A stretch of DNA of 64,000 nucleotides. It comes from Barnesiella sp. GTDB lineage: Bacteria > Bacteroidota > Bacteroidia > Bacteroidales > Muribaculaceae. How positions within the stretch are numbered: the first letter of the stretch is position 1; each line of letters opens with the position of its first letter. The notes under the pieces are model-generated. The model was not told the DNA's origin and searched no databases. It worked only from the letters and a program-made list of their open reading frames with translations. The translations under genes and the position numbers were made by a program. Of the stretch, positions 41,644 to 44,202 are shown in pieces. The DNA lies in assembly GCA_014801075.1 (NCBI GenBank), contig JAAVEW010000005.1, positions 35,684-99,683 of the forward strand, written 5' to 3'.

Positions 41644-42963
41644 ATGGGCACAATTACAGCATATTCCATCTCCGTAGCCATAATACTTGCCATCGAGTAT
41701 ATAGTCTACAAAAGTCTGTTGGCCAACTCTACGTTCCACCGGTTTAACCGCTTTGTCCTCATGGCTTGCTACGTCATAGCGCTGACCGTAGTGCCACTGT
41801 GCCATCTTATTGGCGGACAGGGTGTTGGAATTGATACCGTCACCACTGCGGGCAACATTACGTTTGAAGCGCCTGCGGCAACTTTTATCGGCACGGCGCC
41901 GGCCGGTACCGGCAGCGCTCTGTGGAAGGCCGTACCTGTTGTTTATATAGCGGGAGTAGTAGCAATGGCGGTGATGACCATTATATCCTACGCGAGAATG
42001 TTGCGCGTGATTCGTGCGGGTGAGCACCGTCGCCGCGGCGATGTCATCATCGTGGTGTCAGATACCAAGGTATCCCCTTTCAGTTGGGGCAAATATATAG
42101 TTGTGTCGCCCGAAGATGCCGATAACGAGACGATTATAGCCCACGAGATGGCCCATATCAACAATCGCGACAGCGTTGACCTGCTATTCGCCCAACTGTT
42201 TATCATATTCAACTGGTTCAACCCCGCGGCCTACCTGATGCGCCGCGAACTGAGTGCGGTTCACGAATATGAGGTAGACCGACTGATGCTCGACTCGGGT
42301 ATCCGCGCCTCTGACTACCAGATGCTATTAATAAAAAAGACTGCCGGCCTCAGATTCCAGTCCATAGCCAACAGTCTTAATCATAGTCAACTTAAAAACC
42401 GTTTAACCATGATGTTGAAATCAAAATCAAGAAGAGGCCGCTCGCTTTTGGCAGCCGCCCTGGTGCCCGCAGCTCTGCTGGCAGTGTCAATGACCAACCT
42501 TCCCGCCGTTGCGTCGACAATCCGTAATGTCGCAGCCGTGAGCTACGACAAAGGTAGTGAAAATAACGCTCCCCTCCAAGAGGCAGCAATCGAAAGCACC
42601 GCAGCAAAGCCTGCTGCCGACGAGAACGACCGCGTTTACGCGAGCGCTCAGCAATTGCCTCAATATGAAGGGGGCATGAAACAGCTGATGACTGACCTTG
42701 CCAACGAGGTGAAATACCCCGAAAAGGTACTTGCCGACGGCGTTTCAGGCAGAGTGGTAGTAAAATTTGTGGTAAATACCGACGGCTCGATGTCAGACTT
42801 CGAGGTAGTTCGTTCGCAAAGCGAAGAACTTGACGCCGAAGCCATCCGCGCCATCAAATCAATCAAAGGCAAATGGACTCCCGGCAAGGAAAACGGCAAA
42901 GCAGTACGTTGCATGTTCACCCTCCCCGTAAGCTTCGCCCTCGAATCCGACACCACCAAGTAA
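41644..42963 (+). CDS. BlaR1-like M56 metallopeptidase with C-terminal TonB domain
   Basis: ETIIAHEMAHINNRDSVDLL zinc motif; C-terminal 'YPEKVLADGVSGRVVVKFVVNTDGSMSDFEVVRS' TonB-type domain. Confidence 0.93.
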   Translation: MGTITAYSISVAIILAIEYIVYKSLLANSTFHRFNRFVLMACYVIALTVVPLCHLIGGQGVGIDTVTTAGNITFEAPAATFIGTAPAGTGSALWKAVPVVYIAGVVAMAVMTIISYARMLRVIRAGEHRRRGDVIIVVSDTKVSPFSWGKYIVVSPEDADNETIIAHEMAHINNRDSVDLLFAQLFIIFNWFNPAAYLMRRELSAVHEYEVDRLMLDSGIRASDYQMLLIKKTAGLRFQSIANSLNHSQLKNRLTMMLKSKSRRGRSLLAAALVPAALLAVSMTNLPAVASTIRNVAAVSYDKGSENNAPLQEAAIESTAAKPAADENDRVYASAQQLPQYEGGMKQLMTDLANEVKYPEKVLADGVSGRVVVKFVVNTDGSMSDFEVVRSQSEELDAEAIRAIKSIKGKWTPGKENGKAVRCMFTLPVSFALESDTTK

Positions 42964-43218: not shown

Positions 43219-43349
43219 ATATATTTTACTCACATTCCAAACCAGATTGAAATTAAAAAAGATTATTCTACATCCCAAATTATCAACCTATAAGTTGCAT
43301 TTTTCAGATTTATTCTCTAACTTAGCGGCAATGTAATTGTTTATAAGAT

Positions 43350-43898
43350 ATGAAGTTTGTACGAATAATCAAGAATTACGACCACCTTTGGGCCGTACAA
43401 GCACCAACCGGTGACGTGGACGAACTTACCCTTCTGTTTCGCAACTGGACAAACGGTGAATTTCTCTTCGACTTCTTTATGGAAAACTTTGAGGATTTGA
43501 AAAGTTTTTTTCATATAGAACGTATTGACGAGGCCGTGAACGACACCTTTGAAGATGCTGAGGCTCTACAAGAAATGGTTCTTGATTTTCCGTACACCGA
43601 ACATCTTGACGAACTTTTCAAACCCCTTGATATCACAGATGCTCGCATCAGAGAATTAAGTCGCGAAAAGGCTCGAAATTGGGATCGAAATCGCCATGCA
43701 AGTTGGCTTAGAATATACGCAATCCGACTTGAACCGAATGTTTACGTTATTACAGGAGGTGCCATCAAACTGACTCGCACGATGCAGGAGCGTGAACACA
43801 CCGCTGCTGAGTTGGAAAAACTTAACCGATGCAAGGCCTTTCTTAAATCTAATAGCGTTTGTGATCAGGACAGTTTTGTTGAACTCACTAATGAATAG
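43350..43898 (+). CDS. Putative HigB/RelE-like toxin with long N-terminal region
   Basis: C-terminal 'SWLRIYAIRLEPNVYVITGGAIKLTRTMQEREHTAAELEKLNRCKAFL' resembles the C-terminal core of HigB/Gp49-type toxins; immediately followed and overlapped by an Xre gene. Confidence 0.55.
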   Translation: MKFVRIIKNYDHLWAVQAPTGDVDELTLLFRNWTNGEFLFDFFMENFEDLKSFFHIERIDEAVNDTFEDAEALQEMVLDFPYTEHLDELFKPLDITDARIRELSREKARNWDRNRHASWLRIYAIRLEPNVYVITGGAIKLTRTMQEREHTAAELEKLNRCKAFLKSNSVCDQDSFVELTNE

Positions 43899-44202
43899 AA
43901 TTATGGCAAGTAAAGCAATAAATTTCTTGAAGGCTCATCAAAGTGATACCCCCTCTAATTTTGTGAAGGAGGCAAATTGGCGTAAAGAAAATGAAAGTTG
44001 GCTGAAATGGTCACGCCAACTTGCTATCTCTCTTATCGGATACATGCAGGACAACGGACTCAAACGTGCTGACCTTGCTATAAAATTAGGTGTCAGCCCT
44101 CAATATGTTAGCAAACTGCTTTCCGGTACCGAAAATCTCAGCTTCAAAAGCGTAGCAAACATAGAGGACAAACTCGGCATTACATGCTTCGCCACAGTCT
44201 AA
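43891..44202 (+). CDS. Xre family HTH antitoxin-like protein
   Basis: 'LKRADLAIKLGVSPQYVSKLLSGTENLSFKSVANIEDKLGI' HTH; start ATG at 43891 (or 43903) overlaps or abuts the toxin stop. Confidence 0.8.
   Translation: MNRIMASKAINFLKAHQSDTPSNFVKEANWRKENESWLKWSRQLAISLIGYMQDNGLKRADLAIKLGVSPQYVSKLLSGTENLSFKSVANIEDKLGITCFATV

Follow-up and report, generated by a model that had tools for sequence, protein, structure and literature searches.

Two adjacent genes in the DNA of a gut Barnesiella sp. (Bacteroidales) quite likely form a type II toxin-antitoxin cassette that is mobile and autoregulated, with a toxin assigned to the HigB/Gp49 branch of the RelE superfamily and predicted to be an mRNA interferase. 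The cassette represents an as yet unnamed long form of a well-known kind of module; according to its structural model, the toxin is a long RelE-superfamily protein with HigB as its closest counterpart in fold. A toxin-antitoxin module had already been proposed at this place in the first-pass annotation of the 64,000-nucleotide stretch of DNA that was analysed (the window), and the proposal is supported by fold matches, profile comparison, the operator and the pattern of gene decay. The features of the module are as follows:

43283-43299, + strand: predicted operator TCAACCTATAAGTTGCA, an imperfect dyad with the consensus GCAACCTATAAGTTGC, overlapping the predicted -33 region (TTG at 43295-43297)
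43318-43325, + strand: predicted -7 element TAACTTAG, one base off the consensus; relatives have TAACTTTG
43350-43898, + strand: toxin gene, 182 aa, RelE-superfamily (HigB/Gp49-like) and related to PDC-M64B, with the predicted key residues R121 and K140
43903-44202, + strand: antitoxin gene, 99 aa, with an Xre/Cro-type helix-turn-helix (HTH) in the C-terminal half (residues 49-94), PDC-M64C-like; start taken from relatives

The 182-residue open reading frame was found as first described, and the Xre-type HTH frame that ends at position 44202 (+) scores 31.7 bits with Pfam HTH_3, above the curated cut-off of 23. The order of the genes, with the toxin first and the antitoxin second, is kept in 92 of the 107 loci examined, where both genes are intact and adjacent; the remaining loci correspond to contig ends, broken toxins or diverged fragments. 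In a second, phylum-wide set, nearly all loci similarly possess both genes, intact, adjacent and with the toxin first. Relatives are encoded by 165 stretches of one genome collection; most of these come from Bacteroidales records, with Bacteroides, Prevotella, Parabacteroides and Muribaculaceae among them. Since the pair is also kept across loci, the two frames are not chance reading frames. The reported overlap of the genes fared less well: the ATG at 43891 (ATGAATAG) is in frame with the HTH frame but probably unused, the conserved start of close relatives being ATGGCAAG(T/C)AA(A/G)GCAAT, located a few bases 3' of the toxin stop. With reference to these relatives, the window antitoxin most likely starts at the ATG 43903, as a 99-residue protein separated from the toxin stop by a gap of 4 nt. 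Genuine ATGA overlaps between the two genes occur in the Prevotella and Parabacteroides relatives.

The toxin, labelled 'hypothetical protein' in RefSeq, has no Pfam, NCBIfam or convincing PHROGs match, and none of the 54 aligned members of its family matches PF05973 or another toxin-family Pfam at the gathering threshold, so that the family is not filed as a member of PF05973. Against the PDB, phmmer yields nothing significant with the toxin sequence, and the toxin profile gives chance-level matches only, mostly to helical designs. Both proteins of the pair match profiles of the PADLOC candidate PDC-M64, which comprises toxin-like (M64A/M64B) and HTH-like (M64B/M64C) profiles and shares its gene order and fold with the window pair. 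The toxin matches PDC-M64B at 9.5e-6, over only some 50 residues located in its C-terminal third, and each of the 54 aligned relatives is recognised by this profile, too; the HTH protein matches PDC-M64C at 1.2e-9, and the M64B HTH profile as well. Because the direct sequence links to known toxins are not significant, the connection to HigB had to run via PDC-M64B. By hhalign, the window family aligns with PDC-M64B over residues 10-159 (probability 96.6, E 6.7e-10) and PDC-M64B aligns with Gp49 (P 1.6e-4), with none of 200 shuffled-column controls scoring as high at either step, but the direct comparison of the window family with Gp49 is not significant, 5 of the 200 shuffles reaching the same score. 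The HigB/Gp49 likeness first noticed in the C-terminal part of the toxin is supported by the fold matches and by the profile comparison via PDC-M64B, but not by the direct profile comparison.

The AlphaFold (AF2) model of the window toxin, built from the alignment of 54 sequences, has a pLDDT of 93.5 and a pTM of 0.90. The six best Foldseek matches in the PDB all consist of Streptococcus pneumoniae HigB chains (6af3/6af4), with Vibrio cholerae HigB2 ranking lower, and the best HigB match has a weak E-value of 0.015, a probability of 0.96 and a TM-score of 0.34 by query and 0.47 by target. A second model, for the shorter sister family PDC-M64B (pLDDT 90.4), was built from seven other sequences; a member of this sister family, L133, is encoded in the window's own genome. 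S. pneumoniae HigB is again the best PDB match, with a probability of 1.00 and a TM-score of up to 0.64 by target length, and further matches comprise RelE, a ribosome-bound HigB1, a RelE2, ParE, HigB2, YafQ and YoeB. The β1-α1-α2-β2-β3-β4-α3 fold of RelE accordingly occurs in the models and the Foldseek matches, with E-values that are weak for the toxin and stronger for PDC-M64B; a viral fold library contains no meaningful match to the toxin. An HTH regulator encoded together with a small protein unrelated to HigB, which would resemble HigB by coincidence, might be suspected from the missing Pfam match and the weak direct scores, but is very improbable in view of two independent structure models and a profile chain that agree on both the fold and the residues.

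The N-terminal region of about 110 residues had been singled out as long for a HigB and as a possible new domain. It is indeed longer, by some 25-40 mainly helical residues, of which about 25 are located near positions 36-58 and about 15 between α2 and the main sheet. However, rather than a separate domain, residues 1-110 are predicted to hold mostly the ordinary β1-α1-α2 core of RelE, enlarged by helices, a correspondence that follows from the order of the elements in the two models and from the hhalign gaps. In the window toxin, a β-hairpin (2-17) is followed by five helices (25-33, 36-45, 47-54, 59-78 and 82-88) and, in the C-terminal part, by three strands (104-108, 120-128 and 131-139) and a long helix (149-167). 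The PDC-M64B model consists of a hairpin (3-22), two helices (29-38 and 41-60), three strands (77-79, 87-93 and 98-106) and a helix (116-138). A more speculative idea, to which we attach a low probability, is that the window family represents a distinct clade of RelE-superfamily toxins, in which the extra helices between α1 and α2 form a new surface, e.g., a sensor of phage or host proteins or a second contact with the ribosome or the antitoxin, which would turn the toxin into a triggerable defence toxin distributed throughout the Bacteroidota.

Compared to the known systems, the window module shares its toxin-first operon and HTH antitoxin with the HigBA modules of the Gp49 branch (PF05973), such as those of S. 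pneumoniae (HigB, 6af3/6af4) and Mycobacterium tuberculosis (HigB1, 7nbu), together with the predicted RelE topology and an Arg and a Lys that align with those of the HigB active site. It differs by the length of the toxin, 182 residues against about 110-120, by the failure of the Pfam model to recognise the family, by a third active-site Arg that is not clearly present, and by the KTQKTP motif, which is replaced by KLTRTMQER. Within PDC-M64B, most of the aligned proteins contain 156-166 residues, whereas the window clade reaches 182 residues, with extra helices between α1 and α2. The RelE, YoeB, YafQ and ParE toxins share the superfamily fold with the window family. The usual partners of the classic RelE/ParE toxins are RHH or Phd/YefM antitoxins, which are encoded first, whereas the window module possesses an HTH antitoxin encoded second. 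Besides the window toxin, the same genome encodes a PDC-M64B toxin (L133, G000:C10:69053-69517, -) and a classic Gp49 toxin (L113, G000:C7:61545-61808, +), so that three grades of the toxin superfamily coexist in one genome. Elsewhere, a single reading frame of 225 residues (L122 on G106:C10, 1453-2127, +) combines a Gp49 toxin with a downstream HTH-like region, and looks like a single-chain fusion of toxin and antitoxin.

Two residues of the window toxin, R121 and K140, are invariant in all 54 relatives and line up, in three profile alignments, with an Arg and a Lys that are likewise invariant in the two other families, namely with R88 and K107 of the PDC-M64B protein L133 and with R68 and K89 of the Gp49 protein L113. 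In the Gp49 profile alignment, K140 corresponds to K92 of the solved S. pneumoniae HigB and to the K95 position of M. tuberculosis HigB1; R121 corresponds to R77 of the latter and to R73 of the former, the last residue being assigned by the R-I-L-F motif because the printed alignment has a gap there. R121 and K140 are thus predicted to take the place of R73/K92 (R77/K95 in M. tuberculosis HigB1). In S. pneumoniae HigB, the R73A mutation lowers the activity by about 70% and K92A has only a mild effect (PMC7984235), and both R77A and K95A inhibit the toxicity of M. tuberculosis HigB1 (PMC9098466). For the third active-site residue of HigB (R68 of the S. pneumoniae protein), a counterpart cannot be assigned with certainty; an invariant K107 occurs near this position in the neighbouring strand, in an ambiguous register. 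By inference from HigBA, the window toxin would work like a HigBA toxin: it would most likely enter the ribosomal A site and cleave mRNA via R121 and K140.

A RelE-like protein that has lost its nuclease activity, and serves as a co-regulator of the operon or acts on another target such as gyrase in the manner of ParE, was also considered. The RelE-fold proteins include ParE, which is also matched by the PDC-M64B model, the third active-site residue is uncertain, and some native HigB proteins are non-toxic (M. tuberculosis HigB2 and HigB3, PMC9098466). However, the R and K positions of the RelE nucleases are invariant in 54 of 54 sequences, the best fold matches are HigB proteins that cleave mRNA, and the bias towards toxin loss detailed below suggests a costly toxin; a protein devoid of nuclease activity appears quite unlikely.

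The main conserved DNA upstream of relatives from unrelated contexts is (G/T/A)CAAC(C/T)TATAAGTTG(C/T/A), located at about -67. At 35 nt from the start of this operator occurs a sequence resembling TAACTTTG, which we take to be the -7 element of the Bacteroidota-type TAnnTTTG promoter, and the spacing is fixed in most relatives. As a side observation, the form TAACTTTG, shared by nearly all close relatives, is replaced by TAACTTAG in the window copy, the promoter of which may be weaker. When 150 bp 5' of the toxin gene are considered, the operator is found in 41 of 54 relatives with at most 5 mismatches and in 39 of 54 with at most 4, compared to 44 and 5, respectively, of 1080 shuffled controls; this enrichment is descriptive, since the consensus was read from the same sequences, and the dyad symmetry offers the more independent support. 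In this respect, cross-axis pairs are complementary in 77% of the cells at the true axis, but in 16-37% when the axis is displaced; changes of the outermost pair are also symmetrical (G-C in 10, A-T in 10 and T-A in 6 of 44). The operator core occurs without mismatch once in the 2.7-Mb genome and once in the window. With an HTH_3 domain in the antitoxin and a conserved operator upstream of the operon, the operator is probably bound by the HTH antitoxin, and its location over the -33 region fits repression by this protein. In the toxin-antitoxin reading, the antitoxin would bind and neutralise the toxin and, alone or in complex with it, would occupy the dyad over the -33 region to repress the operon. 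An arrest of the antitoxin supply, following plasmid loss, stress or infection, would free the toxin and stop growth.

The possible release of the toxin by infection leads to the question of defence. A dedicated anti-phage system of the abortive infection type would use the same toxin chemistry, and would be kept because infection frees the toxin; the first-pass annotation also had such a role in mind. PADLOC lists the family as the defence candidate PDC-M64, nominated by guilt-by-embedding, but the candidates of this series are stated to be unvalidated (PMC12988326), and a literature search yielded no paper naming PDC-M64. A survey of the neighbourhoods of 26 relatives, with 140 proteins in total, disclosed no recurrent defence family; none of the families is present more often than three times, and most of the proteins that could be identified have housekeeping functions. 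In the window itself, the module has a BlaI/M56 pair and a symporter for dicarboxylates as neighbours. A dedicated anti-phage system is accordingly unlikely, the PDC-M64 label alone being a weak ground for a role in defence, which is possible but without support from the gene neighbours. The same survey of 140 proteins at 26 loci revealed neither a third component of the module nor a placement in defence islands. Irrespective of its role, PDC-M64, 'hypothetical' in RefSeq and an unnamed candidate in PADLOC, gains a predicted fold, a candidate active site, an antitoxin and an operator, and a family distributed across the Bacteroidota, including gut commensals, becomes directly testable.

The module is best read, from the comparison of loci, as a mobile cassette of about 0.92 kb that moves between unrelated sites of Bacteroidota genomes. 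In all 24 of the closest relatives, the nucleotide similarity is wholly contained within the module, and in most of them its start coincides with the operator or slightly precedes it; the window copy is flanked on each side by 4.3 kb that have no match in these 24 loci. Three congeners (G001, G002 and G005) exhibit the empty site, where the M56/TonB gene and the symporter known from the window occur as neighbours with no module in between, and one of them (G002) has its own copy elsewhere in the genome. Among 118 related genomes, 17 possess relatives, as do 31 of 396 genomes sampled from the phylum as a whole, and three plasmid records carry relatives, one of these plasmids being conjugative. 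An origin from phages was discarded: since 2.9 million viral contigs yielded no more than 5 loci, in addition to one phage record, the toxin is not a typical phage gene family.

The 107 loci include 9 in which a broken or missing toxin accompanies an intact HTH gene and, contig ends aside, none showing the converse. By gene length alone, such a bias has a probability of about 0.02, the nine loci being counted without regard to common descent, and it is conservative to the extent that assembly errors are proportional to gene length and that loci with intact toxins are preferentially retrieved when the toxin serves as the query. The preferential loss of the toxin suggests that it is costly.

A purely selfish or plasmid-addiction cassette, of no gain to its chromosomal host, would similarly account for a similarity limited to the cassette with unshared flanks, for the patchy spread, for the copy on a conjugative plasmid and for a toxin that decays first. 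However, the same signature is expected for beneficial toxin-antitoxin systems, and the toxin exhibits good conservation, with a mean column identity of 59% in the 54-sequence alignment. We give this possibility slightly less than an even chance; it is compatible with the autoregulated toxin-antitoxin cassette proposed above and does not exclude it.

Some minor observations concern individual copies. On the conjugative plasmid of Bacteroides faecis (L187, CP103229.1, 5940-6806, +), the module is located near a gene of the zeta-toxin family, so that two toxin-type modules are close neighbours on this plasmid. A record titled 'Clostridium sp.' (L039, JAMPBQ010000022.1), probably a mislabelled or misbinned MAG, contains a copy that shares 77% identity with the window toxin. 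In the window, the M56/TonB_C gene next to the module (41644-42963, +) encodes 439 residues with one TonB_C domain, and its counterparts in the congeners (L173-L175) are open frames of 637-697 residues with two TonB_C domains; with the module located between this gene and the symporter, its arrival may have accompanied the loss of the second TonB_C domain.
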